Shown: in pieces, positions 23,810 to 58,011 of the stretch
Layout: each line of letters starts with the position of its first letter
Numbering within the stretch: the stretch's first letter is position 1
NCBI RefSeq assembly: GCF_014898055.3
Contig: NW_023601433.1
Coordinates: 84,887,106 to 84,951,105 of the forward strand
Source: Talpa occidentalis
Lineage: Eukaryota > Chordata > Mammalia > Eulipotyphla > Talpidae
Reading direction: 5' to 3'
Length of the DNA stretch: 64,000 nt
Translations under genes and position numbers: made by a program
The notes under the pieces: generated by a model
Database searches by the model: none
What the model saw: the letters and a program-made list of their open reading frames with translations, nothing else
Told to the model about the DNA's origin: nothing

Positions 23810-36458
<12,649 letters not shown>

Positions 36459-40690: not shown

Positions 40691-43600
40691 TACTCAAGGA
40701 TGAATTTGAGCCCCCACTTAATATCATACTAAGTGGTATAAAGCTGAGAGCTTCTCTAAGATCAGGAAAAAGACATACATACCCACTTTTGGCACATTTA
40801 TTCAACATAGTATTGAAATCTTAGCCAGACCAGTTAGGCAAAAATAGAAGTCGTACTAAATCATAAAGGAAGAAATAAAACTGTCATTATTTGAAGATGG
40901 CATGGTAATTTATATTAAAAGTCCTAAAGATGGTACCACAATGGTTAGATTAAAAGAATTTACTAAAGTTCCAAAAGGCGAAACTAATACACAAAAATAT
41001 TTTGTGCTACTATACACTAATAACAAACTTCAGAAAGGGAAATTAAGGAAATTGTTGTATCTGTGATTGTATCAAAAAGAATAAAGTGCTTTGCAGTAAT
41101 AAGAGGAAAGTATTAATAAAATACAGACCCACATGAAGAAACAAGAAAGAAACCAAGAAACAACCTAATCTCCATCTCAAAGAACTAGAAAAAGAACAAC
41201 AGAAAACCCCAGAAGTCACTAGAAGAAAGGAAATATTTTAAATTCAAGCAGAAATAAAGGAAGCAGAAGTAAAAAAAAAAAAAAAAGACAATTCAAAAGA
41301 ACAATGAAACTAATAGCTGATTCTTTGAAAATATAAACAAAACAGAAATGTCTAGCCAGGCTCACAAAGAAAAAAAGTGAGAAAACTCAAATACATAGGC
41401 TTACAAATGAAAGAGGAGAAAATACAACAGATACAGCAGAAATCCAGAGGATAATCAGAGATCACTTTGAACATTTATAGGCAGACAAGTTCAACAATCT
41501 AGATGAAATGGACAAATCTTAGAACTATACAATTATCGAAAGCTGAATAAAGAAAAAATAGAAAACTTAAACCAATTACAAAAAGCAAAACTGAAACAAT
41601 AATCAAAACCCTCCCCCAAAACAAAAGCCTAGCACCAGATGGTTTCACACCCGTGCTCTACCAAATACTCAAAGATGAACTAGTGCCTATCCGACAAAAA
41701 CTCTTTCGAAAAATTGAGAAAGCATGAATACTACCAAATACATTTGATGAAGCCAACAGCACACTAACACCAAAACCAAACAAAGACAATACAGAAATGA
41801 AAACTACAGGCCAGTCTCCCTAATGAACACACATGCAGACATCCTACATAAAATTTTAGGAAACCAAATCCAACAGTCCATCAAAAGGATGACACACCTT
41901 GACCAAGTGGGATTTATTCCAAGGACACAAGGATGGTTCAACATCCAAAAATCAATTAATGTAATTCAGCACATCAACAGAAAGAAAAATAAAAACCATA
42001 TGATCATATCAATAGATGCTGAGAAGGCATCTGGTAAAGTTCAGCATCCATTTATGATGAAGGCCCTCGAAATACTCGGGATAAAAGGGACATATCTGAA
42101 CATAATAAAATCCATATATGACAAACCCACAGCTAGCATTCTTAATAGTGAAAATCTTAAAGCCTTCCCTTTAAGACCTAGAATAAGGCACTGTCACCAC
42201 TGCTTTTCAGTCTAATACTGAAGTCCTATCTAGAGCAGTTAGGCAAGGGAAGGACATACGAGGAATTCAAATATGGAAAGAAGTAAAACTATCACTATTT
42301 GCAGGTGATTTAAGATAGGGAACCCTAAAACTCCACAGAAACACTAATGCTAGACCAGTTTAGTAAAGTAGCAGATTCCAAAATCAACACACAAATATCA
42401 GAGTCAGTCTGAAGAAGACAAAATCAAGAAAACCATTCCTTTTACTACTGTACCAAAAAGGAAAAAATTAAATACCCAGTAACAAGCCTAACATGGGAGG
42501 TGAAAGATCTATACAAAGAAAATTACAAAACAATGTGGTAAGAGAAATAGAAGATCCTGATTAACATGATCAACATGGCCATACCACAAAAGCAACTTAC
42601 AGATTCAGTGCAATTCCAATAAAAATCTCAATGGCATTCTTCAAAGAAATTGAACAAATATTGCTGAAATTCGTATGGAATCATTAAAAAAAAAAACACC
42701 CTCGATTAGCAAAGCTGTCTGGATTGAAAGGGGAAGAATAGAGGTATTACACTGCCTCATCTCAAACCTATACTACAAAGCCATAATAGTAATAACATCA
42801 TAGTACCGGAACATAAACATACACACAGACTAATGGAATTGAATTGAAAGCCCAGAAATAAAGTCACACAGAGACAAAGGAGCAAAGAACATGCACTGGA
42901 ACAAGGATTGCCTTTTCAGTAAGTGGTGCTGCGAAAACTGGAACACTACATGCAAAAGAATGAAACGACTATTTTCTTACACCATGCCATACACAAAAAA
43001 CAACTCAAAATGAATAGGAAACATTTATGTAAGACCAGAAACCATAAACTATATAGAAAAACATAAGCAAACATTCCATGACATAAATCTCAGAAACATC
43101 TTTGAGGACTCTTCTCTAGAAGGAAAACATTTGCATTCCACACAACAGATGAAGGAATGATATCAAAGATCTGCAAAGAGCTTACACAACTCAACAAAAA
43201 CAAACAACCCAGTCAAAAAATGGGCAGAAGAACTAAGAAGACACTTCGCCAAAGTGGAAATACAAATGACCAGCAGGTGTATGAAAAAATGTTCAACATC
43301 ATTTAAAATCAGGGAAATGCAGGGCCTCCCTGGTGGCGCAGGTGGTTAAGTGCAGCGATCTGAAGCTGTCCGCAGCCTCTGCAGTGCCAGTTTGATCCCC
43401 GCCGGCCTCGAGCAACCCACATGGTAAGCAGACCTCTCCTAGCTCGCCTTCTGCTCCCCTCAGCAGTGTATTTCATCAGTGCCTTTTCTGTTCCCCGCTC
43501 TGTCTCTAGTGAATCCTCTCACCCTCCCGTGCATCTGGCCTGTACCCCTGTTCTTGTATAAATAAAAATCTTTAAAAAAATAAAATCAGAGAAATGCAAA

Positions 43601-46756: not shown

Positions 46757-49126
46757 TTAGGTCTCTGGTTCTCCCTCTCCCTCTCCCTCTCCCTCTCCCT
46801 CTCCCTCTTCCTCTCCCTCTCCCTCTCCCTCTCCCTCTCCCTCTCCCTCTGCTGGGGCACCCTCTTCAGGAGCTTCCTCTGCTGGGGCACCCTCTTCTAA
46901 GGGAGTCTTTGGAGGTTCTGCTTCTGGGGGCTTTTCTGTGGGTGCTGAAGGATGTGCTTGTGTACCTTTACAAACAGTGATGATGCAGACAATTGCCAAT
47001 ACTAATAGAATAATAATACCTATAATACCAAGTATGACTGCTGTGTCTAAGAGTCTTTCTTCTTTTTGGATATTCTGGGTGAAGTTTTGACCAAATCCTG
47101 GAGCAGGTGTTTCGTGGATATTTGTAGGGGAACCACTGTCCACACTACCTCCATTTCCTGCAGATTTGCAGTCAGGGGGAGCATATCCAGAGTCACAATG
47201 GCAATGATATAAATTGTTACAGACTCCGTTCCCATTGCATGTATCTATTGGTTCACAGGCAGTTTGGCTCTCATTGTAGTCTGTGCAGGCTGAATTCATG
47301 CAGACTTTATTTGTAGCACAGTAAGTGCCATTGGGCACATCTCCCTCATCAGGGATATCAGTATTGGCATAGGCATCCATACTCCAGCAGAATTCATCTC
47401 CATGAGGAACCTGAATCAGTGTGTGCTGGGGTTTGATTGCTGGTAGTTTTACTACACCAGTGCATATAAGTTTCCCACAAAATAAGTTCTCATCTGAACA
47501 CTTGACATAGGATTGGTTAGCTGCCATGGGACGGCCACAGTTCCCAAACCGGTTCCCTTGGCTGTTCATTGCTGTGTAGCACTCTTGCGGTGCAGACGTT
47601 GCTCTCAAACCATAAATATTTTCACATTGAACATCATGGCTTCTGCATGAACCGTTAATGCAATGGTAAAATGTTTGACACAAACTACCATCTAGCTTAT
47701 AGGTATCATTAGGACATATACTGGAGAAACCACTGCAGTATTCTGGAAGGTCACATTCGCTCAAAGCAGCACGGCAAGTGAGGCCCTCTGGTTCAAATTT
47801 GCAGTTAGTGTTACAACAGGGTCCAGGAATGCATTGTGCTTTTCCCTTAAGCTTACATGTATTTTCACAGCATGGGTCTTGAGCACATTTACTACCACAG
47901 TCACACTGCTCACCTGATTCCAGCACACCATTTCCACACACAGAATCCCTACGCCTGCGGCCTTTGTGCTGAGGCTTGTTAAACAGGCAGGCCCCTTTCT
48001 GTCCGTGGAGGAACTGGTAGTAGTAGTCGGAGCTGCAGTTGCTAAAGCCACTTTCTTTGGTGACATTTTCATGCATGAGGCAAAAGTGCTGGTCCTCACA
48101 GATGCAGGCCGAGTGGTCATGCTCAATACCCAAGTTGTGCCCAAGCTCGTGCACCATGAGTGCAGCAGACAGGAGGGCATCTTCGTGATGGAAGGATTCA
48201 ACAGCTGCCGCAAACTCCCTCGAACAGGCACCACTGAGAAATGCCCGCCCCGTGGCCTCTCCAGGGTGATGCCCGACGATCATGTGGGCGACGTCATGCT
48301 TCACACGAGGGAAGAGCTCCTCTTGTCTCCACCTATTGAAATTCCCGAGTGCAACTGCCAAGTCCTCAGGCACCTCTACGAGGTCGCCCTCGGTCCACAG
48401 CTCCATCCCAGCCAGCACCACCTGTGTGTTAATCCCCCTGGTGAAGCTGTTGGCCAGAGCAATGACGTCCATTACTCTCCGCACCGCCTCGGTGACGTTA
48501 CTGCCCCACGTCTGGAAGCACTGGTTGGTGACCACCACGAACATCTCCACGTACTTGGTGTGTGACCACAGGGAGGACGGCGTGTGCGGGCTGTGAGGCT
48601 TCCTGCTCCTTTGTTGCTGGCTGGCCAGCGCCGACGCTGACGCCGACGCCACTGGGCTGTCTTGGGAAGTGACACTGCAGGAGACTCGCGTTTGCTGTGC
48701 CAGGGTGTACAGCACATGTTGAGACCGTTTTGGAGGCTCCATGGGCTCAATGCCATAGGCTTTCCCCTCCTTAATCAGGATGCCCCTGAGGCCTGAACAG
48801 GTGTTCACAGAAACGAAAGAACCCGGGACGCCTTCTATGTAGCCTTGGTAGTGACAGTCCCGGGAGCTGAAAGGCATTTCTCGCCCCAGGACACCACTGT
48901 GGTAGCTGAAGACCGGAAAGTGACTCACAAAATAATCTCTCTCCACCGTCAGGCGAATCAGCTGCTTCTGGCCCTGCATAGACAGCACATAGGCTGCCTC
49001 TTCCAGCGGGTCTCCCCGCCCCTCCACCGGCAGCATCGTGGGGGTGACTATTTCATAGGGAGAGTCCCGTGCCGATCCCCGGTCACAGTACAAGCTGGGC
49101 AGGAGAATCACTAGCAGTGCCAGCAT
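46757..49126 (-). CDS. ADAM1: ADAM1 (fertilin alpha) left copy, intronless
   Basis: Encodes 789 residues from the first in-frame ATG (49126). Order: signal peptide (MLALLVILLPSLYC); prodomain with SVNTCSGLRG near 107-115; metalloprotease from KYVEMFVVV (191), with zinc site HELGHNLGIEHDH at 326-338; RRRR at 390-393, a furin-type site; disintegrin domain with ECDLPEYC near 457; cysteine-rich domain; EGF-like fold near 626-653; transmembrane segment near 694-718; and a cytoplasmic tail ending in a Glu-Gly repeat (760-786). In mammals fertilin alpha pairs with ADAM2 in the testis, for fertilin assembly and sperm surface protein maturation, and is cleaved before the disintegrin domain. The zinc site is intact, so protease activity is possible. 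The open frame continues 5' to 49357 without another ATG. TMEM116 and MAPKAPK5 flank the cluster. Whether it is ADAM1A or ADAM1B cannot be decided. Confidence 0.92.
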   Translation of the reverse strand: MLALLVILLPSLYCDRGSARDSPYEIVTPTMLPVEGRGDPLEEAAYVLSMQGQKQLIRLTVERDYFVSHFPVFSYHSGVLGREMPFSSRDCHYQGYIEGVPGSFVSVNTCSGLRGILIKEGKAYGIEPMEPPKRSQHVLYTLAQQTRVSCSVTSQDSPVASASASALASQQQRSRKPHSPHTPSSLWSHTKYVEMFVVVTNQCFQTWGSNVTEAVRRVMDVIALANSFTRGINTQVVLAGMELWTEGDLVEVPEDLAVALGNFNRWRQEELFPRVKHDVAHMIVGHHPGEATGRAFLSGACSREFAAAVESFHHEDALLSAALMVHELGHNLGIEHDHSACICEDQHFCLMHENVTKESGFSNCSSDYYYQFLHGQKGACLFNKPQHKGRRRRDSVCGNGVLESGEQCDCGSKCAQDPCCENTCKLKGKAQCIPGPCCNTNCKFEPEGLTCRAALSECDLPEYCSGFSSICPNDTYKLDGSLCQTFYHCINGSCRSHDVQCENIYGLRATSAPQECYTAMNSQGNRFGNCGRPMAANQSYVKCSDENLFCGKLICTGVVKLPAIKPQHTLIQVPHGDEFCWSMDAYANTDIPDEGDVPNGTYCATNKVCMNSACTDYNESQTACEPIDTCNGNGVCNNLYHCHCDSGYAPPDCKSAGNGGSVDSGSPTNIHETPAPGFGQNFTQNIQKEERLLDTAVILGIIGIIILLVLAIVCIITVCKGTQAHPSAPTEKPPEAEPPKTPLEEGAPAEEAPEEGAPAEGEGEGEGEGEGEEEGEGEGEGEGEGEPET
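46772..46849 (-). repeat. Coding hexamer microsatellite
   Basis: (CCCTCT)n on the + strand, about 13 units with one CCTCTT variant, encodes the Glu-Gly run at the end of the left ADAM1 tail. It is probably length-variable. Confidence 0.93.
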
Positions 49127-49308
49127 GATCCCCCACCTGACACAGGCAGGCCGTGGCTCTGGCCCTAAGCTCAGGACCTTTTTTTGCGGAGCCCAAGTCT
49201 GGAACTTTATCTCGGTGTCCTTCAAGGTCTGCTGGGTTTTCTGTGGAGAAGGCAGTGCAGAGGCAGAGTCTGTCACAGAAGCTGCCACTGACAGTCCTGG
49301 TGAGTCAG
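47944..49308. repeat. Homogenised ADAM1 tract, left copy
   Basis: Aligns with 56622-57986 at a constant offset of 8678. By eye there is one difference in 1365 bp (C at 48581, T at 57259; synonymous, Thr). Outside it the two genes diverge sharply on both sides. Confidence 0.95.
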
Positions 49309-50480
49309 CTGATGATACAGGGCCTGCATCTGTCAGCGGTAGCTCTGTCTGGCACACAGACCCTCAGTCCCAAGTTCAGTCCAGATATGTGCGGGCTGGA
49401 AAGGATGGCTCCTGCCTACCTGGGAGGGAAAAGCCTTCTGGCTGTGTCCTTGCTAGTCTTTCTGGTCTCTTCTCTGCTCCCAATAGTGGCCTTGTCTGTG
49501 ACTTGGTTCCACAGCTCCAGCTTCGGTGCTCCTTGACTAAGGCCCTTTTGCCACCACCGAGGATTGTGAACTCTAATGCAAGACCGTACCTGGACAGAGG
49601 AAGCAAAATCTCCCTGCCTTGCTCAACGGTGTCACCGGAACTCCCCTCCCCCACCCTGCATCCTGTTGTCCGTTGCTGAGCTAACTCCAGATGTTCCACC
49701 CAGGGGCTTGGAGATCCTGATGGACACACTCCATTGCCCACATCCCCTCTTCTAAAAGAAGCACAAAGTCCCATCTCTAGTCCATGGAGATCATAGTCCT
49801 GGTGTTCCCTATCCTGCATGGGCCATTATAGTGATATGCACATCTGGCTGGGCAATCTGTTAGATAAGGCTAATGGGCTGGTTGCCCAGTGCCCCAAAGG
49901 AAGACTTGAGTGGGCCTGTGTGATCCATGGGGCCAAGGATGATCCTGTTTTAATATCATCAGAATTCGTTGTCTCAGGTTCTGTTTATAACAGTGTCCAG
50001 TAGTGTCATGGAAGATATTACAGGCCATGGGCACCATTGTTGGTGTCCCCAAACCACAGCCTTCTTGGGATGGTCCTGACATACCAGGATCCTCAGATTA
50101 TGCCTGCTGAAGATTGGGGATCCTAAAAGTCTCCCCTGTATTATGTGATCTCCCTGTCTTCCTTGCCACTCCTGTTTGGCACCTTATGCCCCCAGACCTA
50201 GAAGAGTGCTAGTCCAAGAGCACTTGAACGAGTTGCTTGTTGGCTGAATACATGCTCCCAGGCATGGGATGTCTCACCTGTTGATCATTATTCACTGGCA
50301 TTGCTTTTGCCTGCCCTGAATGGCCTCATGTTCACAAAACTCAACCATGCCAACTAATGGCACAGGTCATGCTCCTGACTCTTTGCCTCCTGTTTCTCTG
50401 AGAAAAACAGTCCAGGAGGGTCTAACTTGCCTGCGGCTACAGTGGATATAAATCATCCCCATCCAGTCTAAGAGCAGTCC
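49127..50480. other. 5' flank of left ADAM1
   Basis: The reading frame stays open from 49126 to 49357, where a GTG and then an upstream TGA occur. Beyond lies GC-richer sequence with no recognised repeat family or CpG island. It probably holds the promoter and any 5' untranslated exon. No TATA box in a convincing position was found. Confidence 0.4.
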
Positions 50481-50914
50481 TTTAACTTGAGCGTGGTGTG
50501 TTCTTCCCTGTCAATTTCTCATGGTTTCCACTCTCCCAATTGCCCCTTCTTTCTCTTCCATCTTAAACATCTCTGTCCTTTGCATTCATTCCCATTATAT
50601 GCAGTGATATCTCACCTTTCTGAAGCCATCCCTTTCAGTCCTCACATCTACAGTCACCAGCCAGTTTTTCCTGTTTTCCTATGAAACTATTTGGGAGGGT
50701 GTATGGACTTTCTGCTCCCATGTGTATCAACAATTCACTAGTTTTTCCCTTTTTTTTTTTTTTGAGAATTCTTTAATTCTGAAAGATAGCATAATGGCAA
50801 AACATATATAAGTCTTCAATGTATTTTTCAGGAAATTGTTAAAAAGAGAACAGCTGAACCTGACAGAAAAGACAAATAGTTTATGGTGTAATTTGTGAGG
50901 TTCCTCCAATAGTT
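50481..50914. other. Unassigned sequence
   Basis: C/T-rich on the + strand with a T-run at 50747-50763. No gene was seen. Confidence 0.35.
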
Positions 50915-51165
50915 AAATTCATAGAGACAGGAAATAGAATGGAGATTACCAGATGCAGGGAAAAGAGTAAAGGGGAATCGATGATCTTTAATGTGTTTGG
51001 AGTTTCATCTGGGGACAATGAAAAAATTCTGGAAATGGGCAGTGGTGATGGTTGTACTCCAGTGAGTGTGGTTGTACTCCAGTAAGAAATGTGACTGAAT
51101 TTTACCTTAAAAGTGGTTAAGAGAGCAAATTTCCATTTAGGTGTATTTTATTGCCACAGAGAAAG
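50915..51165 (+). repeat. Old L1 3'UTR fragment
   Basis: Sequence in the style of ancient L1 3' ends (ATAGAGACAGGAAATAGAAT start, GAAAAAATTCTGGAAATGGG middle). A tandem duplication of GGTTGTACTCCAGTGAGTGT occurs at 51048-51090. Confidence 0.65.
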
Positions 51166-52194
51166 AAGAAACTGTGTGAGATTCACCCTAATCAAGTAAT
51201 CGATTGTTCATGAGTGACTGCCAACACTGAATGGTGGGAGCATCCCATAGACATTCCTCAGAATCCCCCAAATGCAATGGGGAGAGGAGTCAGGAAAAAG
51301 GGGCACTTTGTAAAACCAGCCACACAGTGCAGAGCACTTAGCTTGGAACCCCGAGAGCGCAGACCCCGTTCCCCTGCCTCTGCTTTCCTGCCACATTAAG
51401 CCCCACCACCCTGCTTGTCTGGGGTCTCCACATGCTTAGGATTCACCTAACAGCTCACACATATGTCCCCACTTTCTGTCGCTTTTTCAGAGGAAGTTCA
51501 TTCAAAGAACTGTCCTGACTTTTAGGACACCCAACCTTTCTTCTGATCTGGTAAACCTGAGGGTCAGGCATTAGGAAGGTAACTCAAAATTAAAATAAGA
51601 AAATACAGAACTTACTACTGCTAATTTTTTGTAATATTTGTTGTCAAGCATTGTGAAATCCTAAATAGGTTTTATTGACCTATTCCCGATTACCTACCTG
51701 CCTTTTGGTTTTTAAAGAACGCCACAAAATAGCTGAGCACAATTGCCCCCTACCTAAATCACCATTTCCCTTATATTTGGTAAGGTTTTAAGATTATGTA
51801 ATGCTGCTCGGCTTTTACTAGCATCGCCATGCACATGTGCCCTTAGGAAGACCACCCCTTCTGCTCTCCACTGAAGCTCTTCTCAGCAGAAATCCTCCAC
51901 ATCTTTTTCAGATCTCTAATGACATGATGTATCATAAGGTCTTTGGTTTCCCAGTTTCACCGTTGCTCACAAAACTCTCAGTGGCTACCAACTGGTCGTG
52001 TGTTCCCAAGAGCACTTCCCCTTCCGCCATACAGCATTCTGAGATGTGATAGCACATCCCGGGACCTGGAGACTTACATACACTGAAATCTTGAGTGAGC
52101 ACATTGCTCTGCAGTTTGGTTTTGTGTCACAAAAGTCATGAACATCAGTTTCCTGAAAGCAGAAACCAACCAGGTCTAATCTTCTTTTGTTTGC
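51166..52194. other. Intergenic sequence
   Basis: No gene or named repeat was recognised. It separates old L1 sequence from the L1 at 52195. Confidence 0.4.
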
Positions 52195-53610
52195 TCTTTT
52201 TTTTTTATTTTTTAATTTTTTACATTATTTTTCATTTTTGCACAATGTATGCATTTTCATCTTGGCTGTATTCCCTATACAATGCCCACCCCCCTCATTT
52301 TTACCCTAATCCCTCTTCCCATCCCCGCACCCTGTAGTGTATCTCTGGTTTATAGTTGCTGGTTAATTTTGATTTTTACTTTATTATAATTAGTCTTTTT
52401 CCTGGTCCCTTATTTAGGTTTTCTAAATTCCTGCTATGAGTGAGACCATCCGGTATATTTCTTTTTCTTTCTGGCTTATTTTGCTGAACATGATCCCTTC
52501 CAGCTCTATCCATGTTGCTGCAAATTGCATGACTTTATCTTTTTTGGTTGCTGAGTAATATTCCATTGTGTATGTGTACCACATCTTCTTGATCCAGTCA
52601 TCTATTTTTGTGCATTTGGGTTTTTTCCATAGCTTAGCTATTGTAAATAGTGCTGCTATAAACATAGGGGTGCAGGTGCCCTTTTGAATTAATGATTCTG
52701 TGTCCTTTGGGTAAATACCTATGAGTGGAATTACTGGATCATATGGAAGCTCCATTTTAGCAGATTGAGGAATCTCCACACAGCTTTCCATAGTGGTTGG
52801 ACCAGTTTGCACTCCCACCAGCAGTGCAGGAGTGTTCCTTTTCTTCCACATCCTCGCCAACATTGGTTGTTGCTAGTTTTTTTAATATGTGCCATTCTCA
52901 CTGGTGTAAGATGGTATCTCATTGTAGTTTTGGGGCCTCCCCTGGTGGTGCAGTGGTTGAGCGTTGGGTGGCGAAGCTGCCCGCAGCCTCACAGCGCCGG
53001 TTTGAACCCCGGCCACCGGCGAGGGTCCCACATGGCACAGCAGACCTCTCCTGCCATGCCCGCTGCTCCCCTCAGCAGTGTATCTCATCAATCTGCCTGT
53101 TCTGTTCCCCGCTCTGACTCTGGTGAATTCTCTCACCCTCCCACGCTTCTGACTGTATCCAGTGCTTTTATAAAAAATAAATATATATTTTTTAAAAAAA
53201 TAATTGTAGTTTTGATTTGCATTTCCCTGATTACAAGTGATGCTGAACATTTTTTCAAATGCCCTGTTGGCCATTTGCATTTCCTCTTTGGAGGAGTTCC
53301 TTTTCAGCACTTCTGCCCATTTTTTGACTGGATTATTTACTTTACTTTTGTTGAGTCTTTTCAGCTCTTTGTAGATTCTGGTGATCAGTCCTTTATCATT
53401 AGTGTTGTGTGCAAAAATTTTCTCCCAGTCAGTGGGGTGTCTCTTTGTTTTGGTTACTGTCTCTTTTTCTGTACAGAAGCTCTTTAATTTGATGTAGTCC
53501 CAGCTGTTTCTCTTTGCCATCTCTATCACGGCTTTGGGTGATGAGTCCTTAAAGATGTTGCCGAGGTGTATGTCATGTAGTGTTTCGCATATATTTCCTT
53601 CTATATGTTT
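52195..53610 (-). repeat. L1 3' part, minus strand
   Basis: Reverse L1 3'UTR (TTTTTTACATTATTTTTCAT start) and ORF2 C-terminus. A 146-residue frame at 52423-52863 reads [18 protein letters not shown] and IKKMWYTYTMEYYSATKK. It is relatively intact and shares its 3'UTR type with 18301-18870. A SINE splits it at 52932-53200. Confidence 0.92.
52932..53200 (+). repeat. tRNA-derived SINE, type A, in L1
   Basis: Full-length copy with ATTGTAGTTTTG on both sides. Confidence 0.94.
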
Positions 53611-54156
53611 TATGGTTGGAGGAGGGACTGGGCCAATGGACCTCTGGGGCCTGATGCTCAGGAATGCCCTGAGACCAGGAACGCTCAGCTTGTAGCGACA
53701 CTGTACCTGAGTGAGGTCTCGGTTGTGCTACACCTAGGAGCTAGCAAGAGGCGGCCAGAGAAGTTGCCCTCCAGTTGTAATGTTGGCTCCTTCCATCCTC
53801 GCCTGGTCACTTGCACTGAACACCTGCAAGGAAAGGGCCTCCACACTGAGTAAGACACAAACCTGCCACACCCGATACCAGCTTGTCATTGGGAGAAAGT
53901 CACTTTCCAGGTGGTGACCACACAGTGTGGTGGTTGATGATGGAGGCTTTGTTTCATTAGAGCCATGTTCTGGAAGGAAGGAAGGAAATACAGACTGCCT
54001 TCCCTGTTATTTTTTGTATTGAAGGACATGGCTTGTGTGACAGAGATTGTAGATTGAGTCGTACCTGGGATGTACGACGAGATATAGGTGCCAACCCTTA
54101 CTACTTCTACAGCAAAACTCTGGTCTCTTTTCTTCTCTCATAATAAGGGAGATCTC
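53611..54156. other. Intergenic sequence
   Basis: GC-richer stretch with no recognised gene or repeat. A short (GGAA)n run lies at 53974-53987. Confidence 0.4.
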
Positions 54157-54157
54157 G

Positions 54158-54422
54158 GGCCTCCCCGGTGGCGCAGGGGGTTGAGCGCACCGCTGTGAAG
54201 CTGTCCATAGCCTCTGCAGTGTGGGTTCCATTCCCGGCCGGCCAGGGAGCTACCCACATGGTGCAGCAAAGCTCTCCTGTCTCACCCACTGCTCCCCTCA
54301 GCAGTGGTTTAGGTCCGTCTGCCTGTTGTGCTCCCTGTTCTGTCTCTGGTGAATCCTCTCACCCTCCTGCACCTCTGGCCTGTACCCCAGCTCTTGTATA
54401 AAATAAATAAATCTTAAGAAAA
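54158..54422 (+). repeat. tRNA-derived SINE, type B
   Basis: Full-length copy with ATAATAAGGGAGATCTC / GATAAGGGAGTTCTC flanks. Confidence 0.92.
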
Positions 54423-54834
54423 TAATGATAAGGGAGTTCTCATAATGCAGATGGGAGGATTAAATTAGTTAACACAATGCACATCGCATATTTAGCACAG
54501 TGTCTGGCACAGAATCAACATTATCATTATTATATGACTTGGGACTGTCTTCACAGAGAAATGCTACCACATCCGAAGTATAGTTACCTCTAATCCTATG
54601 AATTGTCGATAGATAAAACACCAATCTTATGTAGAAAATTTTTAAATCTAAAGGAAAAACAAATCCTCAAACATGAATTCAGCATCATGTAAGGCAGCCT
54701 CCTGCCTTGCTTGCCCACCACTTCCCCGTGTACCTGGACCCCAGGTGATCTGACCACTCTGGCAGATGAGCCCCTTCACAAAGCACCCCAAAATAAAGAT
54801 GTCCTGGGTACTGGGCTGCATCTGAAAAAAGCTT

Positions 54835-54844
54835 TTTATTTATT
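54835..54844 (-). terminator. Candidate poly(A) signals, right ADAM1
   Basis: Two overlapping AATAAA boxes on the minus strand, about 530 bp after the stop. Nearby sequence is homologous to that around 46283-46288, which supports a shared ancestral 3' end. Confidence 0.5.
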
Positions 54845-55371
54845 TCATTGCCTCTATTTCATAAGCAGAAACTGTCAGGGCAGTTTCTCAATAGGAATCA
54901 TGAACTGCCTGGGACGAATAATCACTGATAGTAATACGGTGCATATGATACAATAGGAATAGTGTAGATGGAATTTGGTATGCTCTGAAGAGTACTTTCA
55001 GATCAAAAATCCGTCTAATGAAGGAAGACACTGATAGCAATGACCCAGAAGGCAAACTTAAGTAAATTTTTCATGAAATGGAATAGGCAAAACTGTAGAC
55101 TGTTTTATATGTGATTTAATATGTGAATATATAACCTATTATGAAAATGAATATTGAAAGCAAGGGGATCGCTCCTTCCGATTTAGTGTTCCTGTAAACC
55201 GTGTAGTCCAGGCGGAACAACGGAGCCAACAGTTTCCACTTGGCCTTTCTCTGTTTATCTCTCATTCCCCTCAGTGCTTGAGGTATTTCATATATTTGGA
55301 CCTTCCTGCACTACCCTCCTCCTTTGGTTATTCCGGCACTTCACCAGCTACCACCAATAGTGCAGAGGCTC

Positions 55372-58011
55372 TTATGAGGCCACTGGTGCTAGTGGTGCCT
55401 CTGGTGCTTGTGGTGGTGCCTCAGGTGGGGCTTCTGGTGGTGCCTCAGGTGGGGAGCTCTCTGCTGGTGGGGGTGCCTCTCCTGGTTGGGGAGCCTCTGC
55501 TGGTGGGAGAACCTCCCCTGGTGGGGGTGCATCTTTTGATACCCTTTCTTTTTCTTCGCCTTCTGAACCCTCTAGTAGCTCTTTGGAGCTACTGGTCACC
55601 TCGGAGCTTTCCGCTGAGGGGGTTACTGGGCTGTCTACTGAGTCAACTCCAGTCCTTAAGCATAGGAAAATGCATAAAAGATACACTATTACAAAAAGAA
55701 GTGCAGGAATTATGTAAATTGCCAAATGAACATAGTCAATATTTTCTATGCTTTTAAAATTCTTGGTAACATTACTTGTACTTTCACTTTCAGTAGTTGA
55801 CTTGCCAGGAGGGCCGCTGTCCACACTCCCCCCATACCCTCGATGTTTGCAGTCAGGGGGGTGGTAGCCATAGTCACAATGGCAGTGCCTTAAGTTGTTG
55901 CAAATCCCATTCCCATTACACATTGACTCTGGCTCACAGTCATAGTGGAGCACCGTGTGTTCACTGCAGGTGGAATTCACGCAGACTTTGTTAGGAGCAC
56001 AGTGAGTGCCCGCGTGCACCTCTCCGTCATCAGGGATGTCGGTGGTGCCATAGGCGTCCATGCTCCAGCAGAAGTCTTCTTCATGAGGAACCTGGATCAC
56101 TGTATGCTGGGGTTTGATTGGCGGGAGCTGTCTGACTCCAGTGCATATGAGTTTCCCGCAAAATACGTTGTCATCCTGACACTTGACGTAGGGTTGATCA
56201 GCTGCCTTGGGTCGGCCACAGTTGCCAAACCGGTTCCCTTGGCTGTTCATTGCCGTGTAGCACTCCTCTGGGGCAGACCTTGCAGCATTCCCGTATATGT
56301 TCATGCACTGATTGTTAGGGTTCCTGCACTGACCTCCAACACAGTAGTAGACTATGTCACACAAAGTGCCATCTTGCTTATACCTGTTGGCCGGGCACAC
56401 TTCAGAGGTGCCATCACAATACTCTGGGAGGTCACACTCTCCCGAAGCAGGACGGCAGGTGAATCCCTTGCTCCTATAGAGACAATTAACACAGCAGAGT
56501 CCCTGGCTACACAGGGCGTTGGTCCTCAGCTGACACGTGGAGTCGCAACACGGGTGATTGCTACAGTCAGGCCCACAGTCACACTGCTCTCCATCATCCA
56601 GCACACCGTTTCCACAGCGGTAATCCCTACGCCTGCGGCCTTTGTGCTGAGGCTTGTTAAACAGGCAGGCCCCTTTCTGTCCGTGGAGGAACTGGTAGTA
56701 GTAGTCGGAGCTGCAGTTGCTAAAGCCACTTTCTTTGGTGACATTTTCATGCATGAGGCAAAAGTGCTGGTCCTCACAGATGCAGGCCGAGTGGTCATGC
56801 TCAATACCCAAGTTGTGCCCAAGCTCGTGCACCATGAGTGCAGCAGACAGGAGGGCATCTTCGTGATGGAAGGATTCAACAGCTGCCGCAAACTCCCTCG
56901 AACAGGCACCACTGAGAAATGCCCGCCCCGTGGCCTCTCCAGGGTGATGCCCGACGATCATGTGGGCGACGTCATGCTTCACACGAGGGAAGAGCTCCTC
57001 TTGTCTCCACCTATTGAAATTCCCGAGTGCAACTGCCAAGTCCTCAGGCACCTCTACGAGGTCGCCCTCGGTCCACAGCTCCATCCCAGCCAGCACCACC
57101 TGTGTGTTAATCCCCCTGGTGAAGCTGTTGGCCAGAGCAATGACGTCCATTACTCTCCGCACCGCCTCGGTGACGTTACTGCCCCACGTCTGGAAGCACT
57201 GGTTGGTGACCACCACGAACATCTCCACGTACTTGGTGTGTGACCACAGGGAGGACGGTGTGTGCGGGCTGTGAGGCTTCCTGCTCCTTTGTTGCTGGCT
57301 GGCCAGCGCCGACGCTGACGCCGACGCCACTGGGCTGTCTTGGGAAGTGACACTGCAGGAGACTCGCGTTTGCTGTGCCAGGGTGTACAGCACATGTTGA
57401 GACCGTTTTGGAGGCTCCATGGGCTCAATGCCATAGGCTTTCCCCTCCTTAATCAGGATGCCCCTGAGGCCTGAACAGGTGTTCACAGAAACGAAAGAAC
57501 CCGGGACGCCTTCTATGTAGCCTTGGTAGTGACAGTCCCGGGAGCTGAAAGGCATTTCTCGCCCCAGGACACCACTGTGGTAGCTGAAGACCGGAAAGTG
57601 ACTCACAAAATAATCTCTCTCCACCGTCAGGCGAATCAGCTGCTTCTGGCCCTGCATAGACAGCACATAGGCTGCCTCTTCCAGCGGGTCTCCCCGCCCC
57701 TCCACCGGCAGCATCGTGGGGGTGACTATTTCATAGGGAGAGTCCCGTGCCGATCCCCGGTCACAGTACAAGCTGGGCAGGAGAATCACTAGCAGTGCCA
57801 GCATGATCCCCCACCTGACACAGGCAGGCCGTGGCTCTGGCCCTAAGCTCAGGACCTTTTTTTGCGGAGCCCAAGTCTGGAACTTTATCTCGGTGTCCTT
57901 CAAGGTCTGCTGGGTTTTCTGTGGAGAAGGCAGTGCAGAGGCAGAGTCTGTCACAGAAGCTGCCACTGACAGTCCTGGTGAGTCAGTTGATGATGCAGGG
58001 CCTGCGTCCAT
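55372..58011 (-). CDS. ADAM1: ADAM1 (fertilin alpha) right copy, intronless
   Basis: Encodes 879 residues from the ATG at 58011, or 810 from the Met before the signal peptide (57804). Residues 1-394 of the shorter form are identical to the left copy, including HELGHNLGIEHDH and the RRRR site. From the disintegrin domain on it differs: CGNGVLDDGEQCDCG, GECDLPEYCDGTSEVC, a cysteine-rich domain, an EGF-like fold near 629-652, and a transmembrane segment near 690-716. The cytoplasmic tail is rich in Pro, Glu and Ala, with PPEAPPEAPPEAPPQAPEAP-type repeats. The role is as for the left copy: partnering with ADAM2 in testis and sperm. Its upstream ATG at 58011 is absent from the left copy (ACA there), so the start is uncertain. 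Divergent ectodomains in two open copies suggest distinct roles, as for mouse ADAM1a and ADAM1b. Confidence 0.92.
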   Translation of the reverse strand: MDAGPASSTDSPGLSVAASVTDSASALPSPQKTQQTLKDTEIKFQTWAPQKKVLSLGPEPRPACVRWGIMLALLVILLPSLYCDRGSARDSPYEIVTPTMLPVEGRGDPLEEAAYVLSMQGQKQLIRLTVERDYFVSHFPVFSYHSGVLGREMPFSSRDCHYQGYIEGVPGSFVSVNTCSGLRGILIKEGKAYGIEPMEPPKRSQHVLYTLAQQTRVSCSVTSQDSPVASASASALASQQQRSRKPHSPHTPSSLWSHTKYVEMFVVVTNQCFQTWGSNVTEAVRRVMDVIALANSFTRGINTQVVLAGMELWTEGDLVEVPEDLAVALGNFNRWRQEELFPRVKHDVAHMIVGHHPGEATGRAFLSGACSREFAAAVESFHHEDALLSAALMVHELGHNLGIEHDHSACICEDQHFCLMHENVTKESGFSNCSSDYYYQFLHGQKGACLFNKPQHKGRRRRDYRCGNGVLDDGEQCDCGPDCSNHPCCDSTCQLRTNALCSQGLCCVNCLYRSKGFTCRPASGECDLPEYCDGTSEVCPANRYKQDGTLCDIVYYCVGGQCRNPNNQCMNIYGNAARSAPEECYTAMNSQGNRFGNCGRPKAADQPYVKCQDDNVFCGKLICTGVRQLPPIKPQHTVIQVPHEEDFCWSMDAYGTTDIPDDGEVHAGTHCAPNKVCVNSTCSEHTVLHYDCEPESMCNGNGICNNLRHCHCDYGYHPPDCKHRGYGGSVDSGPPGKSTTESESTSNVTKNFKSIENIDYVHLAIYIIPALLFVIVYLLCIFLCLRTGVDSVDSPVTPSAESSEVTSSSKELLEGSEGEEKERVSKDAPPPGEVLPPAEAPQPGEAPPPAESSPPEAPPEAPPEAPPQAPEAPLAPVAS
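55376..55540 (-). repeat. Coding Pro/Glu/Ala repeat region
   Basis: Imperfect repeats of GGTGCCTC and TGGTGGGGGTGC type on the + strand encode the Pro-Glu-Ala tail of the right ADAM1. It differs entirely from the Glu-Gly tail of the left copy. Confidence 0.85.
56622..57986. repeat. Homogenised ADAM1 tract, right copy
   Basis: Partner of 47944-49308. The left edge coincides with the codon after RRRRD. The right edge lies in the N-terminal extension, 5' of the Met that precedes the signal peptide. Confidence 0.95.

Follow-up and report, generated by a model that had tools for sequence, protein, structure and literature searches.

Tandem ADAM1 genes of Talpa occidentalis share a homogenised first half and keep diverged adhesion halves: probable repeated, domain-limited gene conversion in placental mammals

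How can two neighbouring genes be almost the same in their first half and look like old duplicates in their second? This question was raised by two ADAM1 genes found in the window, by which we mean the whole stretch of 64,000 nucleotides of Talpa occidentalis DNA that was analysed (NCBI RefSeq assembly GCF_014898055.3, contig NW_023601433.1, positions 84,887,106 to 84,951,105 of the forward strand). A preliminary description of the window had proposed a recent conversion event, or ongoing homogenisation, within an old pair of duplicates.

As listed in Table 1, the two genes, here called gene A and gene B, form a same-strand tandem of uninterrupted ADAM open reading frames (866 and 879 amino acids), which fits an intronless tandem pair. 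The frame of gene A stays open upstream to at least 49357, with no ATG before 49126, and gene B has an alternative start at 57804 (MLALLV). Pfam families for the prodomain, reprolysin, disintegrin and ADAM cysteine-rich domains matched both proteins. EGF_2 matched gene A only, slightly under the cut-off, and the EGF-like region of gene B gave no EGF_2 match. Both proteins showed the domain order of ADAM1 (fertilin alpha), with the transmembrane segment read from the sequence, and their nearest relatives in protein searches were named ADAM1a, ADAM1b or fertilin alpha (best 120 of 210 matches for gene B, best 120 of 222 for gene A). The cytoplasmic tails differed in composition, with acidic Glu-Gly repeats in gene A (46757-47000) and proline-rich repeats in gene B (55372-55700). 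In trees, Condylura, the star-nosed mole, joined both the C-terminal half (C-half) of gene A and the shared N-terminal half (N-half), each time with support 1.0.

Table 1. Positions of the two ADAM1 genes and of their homogenised and diverged parts in the window
Feature	Position	Strand	Remarks
Gene A, ADAM1B-type label	46757..49126	-	single-exon CDS, first in-frame ATG (MLALLV, 49126) to stop
Gene B, ADAM1A-type label	55372..58011	-	single-exon CDS; in-frame ATG 58011
Homogenised block, gene A copy	47944..49308	-	14 bp upstream of ancestral start codon through leader, signal peptide, prodomain and metalloprotease to cleavage site
Homogenised block, gene B copy	56622..57986	-	counterpart of gene A block
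Sole within-block difference	48581		C, versus T at 57259; sense codon ACG/ACA, both Thr
Ancestral start codon position, gene A	49292..49294	-	CTG
Ancestral start codon position, gene B	57970..57972	-	CTG
Zinc-binding motif HELGHNLGIEHDH, gene A	48113..48151	-	within block
Zinc-binding motif HELGHNLGIEHDH, gene B	56791..56829	-	within block
RRRRD basic (pro-protein-convertase-like) site, gene A	47945..47959	-	at 3' border
RRRRD basic site, gene B	56623..56637	-	at 3' border
Diverged half, gene A	46757..47943	-	disintegrin, cysteine-rich, EGF, transmembrane, acidic EG-repeat tail (last two read from sequence)
Diverged half, gene B	55372..56621	-	disintegrin, cysteine-rich, EGF-like, transmembrane, proline-rich tail (last two read from sequence)

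Elsewhere in the window, a 175-aa frame on the minus strand at 2292-2816 matched Pfam Ribosomal_L6 and has stops just upstream. These features suggest a retrocopied ribosomal protein gene, probably RPL9. A SINE-like repeat of about 290 bp starting GGCCTCCCCGGTGGCGCAG was present in numerous copies, up to 91% alike, at 28660-30240 and many other places, and a LINE-like fragment of a reverse transcriptase frame was found at 41751-42212.

The two copies of the block differed by 1 mismatch in 1365 bp at a constant offset of 8678, and the mismatch was silent. The offset, both borders and the single synonymous difference that had been claimed were all reproduced to the base. By the Nei-Gojobori method with Jukes-Cantor correction, dS was 0.0031 and dN 0 in the block (1 of 318 synonymous sites changed) versus dS 1.18 and dN 0.29 in the disintegrin-EGF part, a dS ratio of about 380 in the Talpa genome. 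At the protein level, A and B were 100% identical in the N-half and 60.9% in the C-half. When the 2262 aligned columns were shuffled 20,000 times, the longest run with at most one mismatch was 158, versus the observed 1365. Four-fold sites were G or C at 157/235 positions in the block versus 34/116 in the gene A C-half (p = 4e-11) and 65/114 in the gene B C-half (p = 0.10, not significant). The raised GC expected where GC-biased repair has acted on a converted tract was seen in the first comparison and not in the second. If neutral change runs at 2-4e-9 per site per year, the one synonymous change would date the latest homogenisation in Talpa to about 0.4-0.8 million years ago, with a wide error.

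The preliminary description had also stated that the genes diverge at once into old duplicates on either side of the block. This held on the 3' side, where the change was abrupt (dS 1.18). The upstream side needs qualifying: only 89 alignable columns, at 65% identity, precede the block, so the status of old duplicate there rests on a short stretch, and upstream of these columns the alignment gave no convincing homology between the copies.

An artefact of assembly or polishing, by which one N-half was copied over the other, is very improbable. A nucleotide search of the 2.08-Gb assembly found no block copies beyond these two places, both on a single contig extending to 84.95 Mb or more; the sequences flanking the two copies are unlike each other; and the mosaic was also found in database proteins of 20 other species. 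Additional gene copies were considered as conversion donors and, within the reach of this nucleotide search, rejected, as both places it gave lie inside the window; a strongly diverged third copy may still have acted as a donor.

Within-species ADAM1 pairs were then compared among the best 120 of 210 gene B matches. Pairing followed the species names in the database, and eight proteins carrying no species name were not used. The result showed that 25 of 28 pairs, from 21 species including Talpa, were mosaic, with N-halves 85.9-100% and C-halves 48.6-73.0% identical as proteins among the matches listed; most within-species N-half identities were 95-100%. The gene A protein search contributed two new proteins among its best 120 of 222 matches. 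The three non-mosaic pairs (N-half/C-half identity, Erinaceus 96.9/95.2%, Myotis davidii 95.9/96.0%, Equus asinus 100/100%) are tentatively read as recent duplicates, isoforms or alleles. Perognathus and Thomomys have three ADAM1 copies each, with near-identical N-halves and three different C-halves (P0087, P0092, P0098; P0102, P0108, P0110), and therefore the shared-half pattern reaches beyond pairs. These other species were compared as proteins only, and homogenisation at synonymous sites was seen in the Talpa genome alone.

The block dS is compatible with a single recent conversion in the Talpa lineage, the other species being ordinary, but such a history is very unlikely, given the same mosaic in 20 other species among the matches listed and N-half trees that group species by species. 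Since the same split recurs in many placentals, transfer of the first half from one gene to the other seems to have happened repeatedly. On these protein comparisons, the pattern appears to reflect a repeated, domain-limited process across placental mammals rather than a local one-off event.

Trees were built for the two halves separately, using 14 boreoeutherian species drawn from the 21 mosaic species. In the N-half maximum-likelihood tree, the two copies were sister by species in 14/14, and a constraint to orthology was rejected (delta lnL 2530, AU 1.7e-66). In the C-half, the constraint to species pairs was rejected (delta lnL 986, AU 1e-40) and orthology was allowed (delta lnL 10.2, AU 0.26). 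The expectation that 5' halves, and not 3' halves, cluster within species was thus borne out at the protein level. Only in the N-half were within-species paralogues closer than between-species orthologues, the mark of concerted evolution. Sliding trees (70-column windows, 18 species) located the change: of 18 pairs, 12 were sister in each of the first two windows (starts 70 and 91) and 16-18 in those lying inside residues 111-466; over the border the number dropped to 12 and then 9, and windows starting at 457 or later had 1-3. The C-half dS and the rejection of species pairing in the C-half indicated that the duplication is older than the block implies; its exact age is less sure.

The orthology of the C-halves was less simple. 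With 53 boreoeutherian sequences, a chosen set leaving out Afrotheria, Xenarthra and the three-copy rodents, a tree of all A against all B equalled the free tree (delta lnL 0.55, AU 0.49). The A copies never formed one clade in the free C-half trees. In the free 14-species tree, A and B of bats, Talpa and Euarchontoglires partly clustered by order (joining-node support 46-58), and in another free tree the A copies of bats and ungulates branched on the B side (0.95). Rooting and dating the duplication from the C-half alone was therefore discarded, the free trees having no A clade and orthology being allowed but unproven. The labels 1a for gene B and 1b for gene A are consistent with the sequences rather than proven by them, because the free trees lack a single A clade, though the all-A/all-B tree fits equally.

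We next looked at the 5' border, which varied more than the 3' border. The core (residues 121-463) was 91-100% identical between copies in 18/18 species, and leader residues 15-69 were 18-100% identical in 17/18 species with both copies comparable, over 11-55 residues. The ancestral start position is M in 52 of 63 other aligned leaders, Condylura included, and the CTG found there is a derived change now common to both Talpa genes. The first ATG of gene A lies at 49126 and that of gene B at 58011, and therefore translation starts may differ between the copies.

In a tree of 65 typed leaders, each with at least 48 leader residues, a B-linked leader type formed one group (support 0.925). It joins the B genes of Trichechus, Loxodonta, Glossophaga, Artibeus, Otolemur and rodents, and leaves out the A genes of Trichechus, Elephas, Glossophaga, Otolemur, Sciurus and Mesocricetus. 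Leader type does not track A and B everywhere among these 65: the A genes of Talpa, Condylura, Balaenoptera, Elephantulus and Rhinolophus carry the B-linked leader, and the B genes of Equus, Diceros, Ursus, Mustela, Canis, Eptesicus, Pipistrellus, Myotis, Miniopterus, Macaca, Cebus, Carlito and Bos carry the other type. Because Talpa gene A and Condylura gene A both bear the B-linked leader, at least one older B-to-A transfer probably took place in the Talpa lineage. The leader tree suggests that the A/B duplication predates the placental radiation.

Independent recent partial duplications or fusions, with a new C-half joined to a duplicated N-half in each lineage, would likewise yield identical N-halves with different C-halves, and the failure of A to form a clade in free C-half trees agrees with them. 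Judged from the C-half alone, separate duplications or old C-half conversions may have contributed. As a general account, lineage-wise fusion is nevertheless extremely improbable: species pairing of the C-halves was rejected and A/B orthology was not, the B-linked leader upstream of the core joins Afrotheria, Laurasiatheria and Euarchontoglires, and both ends of the genes look old with a young middle.

Conservation without conversion was examined with nine between-species comparisons, each of a single gene type. Between Talpa A and Condylura A, N-half identity was 80.4% and C-half identity 80.5%. In the other eight comparisons the N-halves were 81.6-93.0% identical and exceeded the C-halves by 0.7-20.3 points, most for A genes, so the N-half is somewhat more conserved. 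This excess in 8/9 comparisons, together with the HExGHxxGxxH motif retained in 112/122 aligned proteins, is what strong purifying selection on the N-half would predict. We give next to no weight to purifying selection as the sole cause: it does not hold synonymous sites, which in the Talpa block are almost unchanged; N-halves were 80-93% identical between species (nine comparisons) versus mostly 95-100% within; and the Talpa-Condylura comparison showed no N-half excess. Pairs of ADAM1 outside mammals were sought with a skink protein, but among the best 120 of 428 matches none was named ADAM1, the proteins being squamate, with a few turtle or unnamed, and, where named, mostly ADAM20/21-like; they served only as a control. 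Among 135 within-species pairs of squamate ADAM20/21-like proteins from 15 species, the N-half exceeded the C-half by at most 4.1 points, and the median lay 9 points below.

On its 3' side the border in Talpa was sharp, the identity stopping one base past the codon for D of RRRRD. A basic motif between the protease and disintegrin domains was present in 109/122 aligned proteins. Change points were fitted in 36 mosaic pairs, made up of the 25 within-species pairs and 11 close-relative pairs chosen by C-half type, with the three non-mosaic pairs omitted. In this fit, which presumes one drop from high to low identity and covers only pairs already seen or picked as mosaic, all 36 change points fell at gene B residues 459-549: 10 at or before 463 (the D of RRRRD), 20 at 464-491 and 6 further on, with support intervals down to 455. 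The 3' border in these pairs thus lies at the cleavage-site region or at most 86 residues past it.

According to the accessible part of PMC3141649, pig ADAM-1 seems to shed its propeptide and protease domains, probably through a cut at the conserved convertase site, and of the two mouse proteins ADAM1A stays in the ER while ADAM1B is found on the sperm surface. In the same source the pro-domain is listed as one of the most different regions of pig 1a and 1b, whereas the N-halves of warthog B and pig A were 96.9% identical in our comparison; the leader may explain part of this discrepancy.

Homology-limited conversion alone, with no role for functional selection in the border, has more in its favour than the alternatives above. 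In this account the likeness of the N-half would sustain itself and the C-half would have diverged early. Sequences that differ as much as the C-halves should seldom convert each other. The 5' border is gradual and variable among species, as the leader identities showed, and the 3' border ranges over residues 459-549. Passive erosion should, however, trim the 3' side of the block in some lineages, and the change point was at 459 or later in 36/36 pairs, with none eroded into the protease half. On balance we regard homology limitation by itself as unlikely, at an appreciable probability.

Taken together, the contrast in dS and the within-species clustering of N-halves support a picture of old duplicates that were recently converted or are still being homogenised, and it is very probable that old tandem intronless ADAM1 duplicates have had their first half repeatedly overwritten by interlocus gene conversion, the adhesion half being spared. 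In this mechanism, conversion would overwrite the N-half, in Talpa a stretch that begins near the start codon and ends at the convertase cleavage site, and would leave aside the C-half, which would be retained on the protein after cleavage and bears the adhesion domains. Selection would weed out conversion tracts running far into the C-half, since the mature proteins differ in function. The C-half would by now be too diverged to seed conversion, and the border would therefore be self-reinforcing.

We also propose, tentatively and at somewhat less than an even chance, that across placentals the two ADAM1 genes have an N-terminal cassette in common and each a C-terminal head of its own, kept so by selection with the cleavage site as boundary. 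The N-halves would be held alike perhaps since a single partner, ADAM2 or a testis chaperone, has to accept both, and conversion in the intronless pair would do the job of a shared exon in a spliced gene.

Both elements of this process, domain-limited conversion and long-term conversion of a tandem pair, are already known. The clustered protocadherins, like ADAM1, show domain-limited conversion in cell-surface adhesion genes; as described in the accessible part of PMC4978886, EC4-6 are more prone to conversion and the specificity domains EC2-3 are spared. They differ in having many genes, variable exons and a graded dS ratio of about 2-5 in the table rows of that source, whereas ADAM1 is an intronless set of two (sometimes three) genes with one sharp step near the cleavage site and the far higher ratio given above. 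The Hsp70 genes HSPA1A and HSPA1B are, like ADAM1, a placental tandem pair kept alike within species by conversion, from a duplication dated to possibly more than 100 million years in the portion available of PMC5865164; its stress-inducible copies are described there as almost identical, whereas in ADAM1 this is true of the first half only.

ADAM1A and ADAM1B as described in the accessible text of PMC3849967 are, as here, two tandem copies with differing localisation. In Mus, that text reports positive selection on the Adam1b adhesion domain and purifying selection on the Adam1a adhesion domain; the adhesion domain was the part sequenced and aligned, and the term "gene conversion" is absent from the same text. 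The available part of PMC4550289 reports that strict orthology does not hold between the Adam1 copies of mammals and those of chicken, and it makes no mention of gene conversion. Within the accessible portions of the open-access literature, we found no report linking ADAM1 or fertilin alpha to gene conversion or concerted evolution. Older papers on monkey and human fertilin alpha (Biochem J) or on the mapping of mouse Adam1a/1b may have noted the alike N-halves, and we claim no priority for the ADAM1 case.

If the pattern is true at the DNA level, ADAM1 would show with unusual clarity how conversion can respect a protein-processing boundary, perhaps from a time earlier than the placental radiation, and would help to explain why ADAM1 orthology is hard to draw. 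Analyses of dN/dS and trees of ADAM1A and ADAM1B would then have to handle the two halves separately. The pair would also pose a general question that can be tested, namely whether the borders of conversion are set by sequence divergence or by selection against mixed functions.
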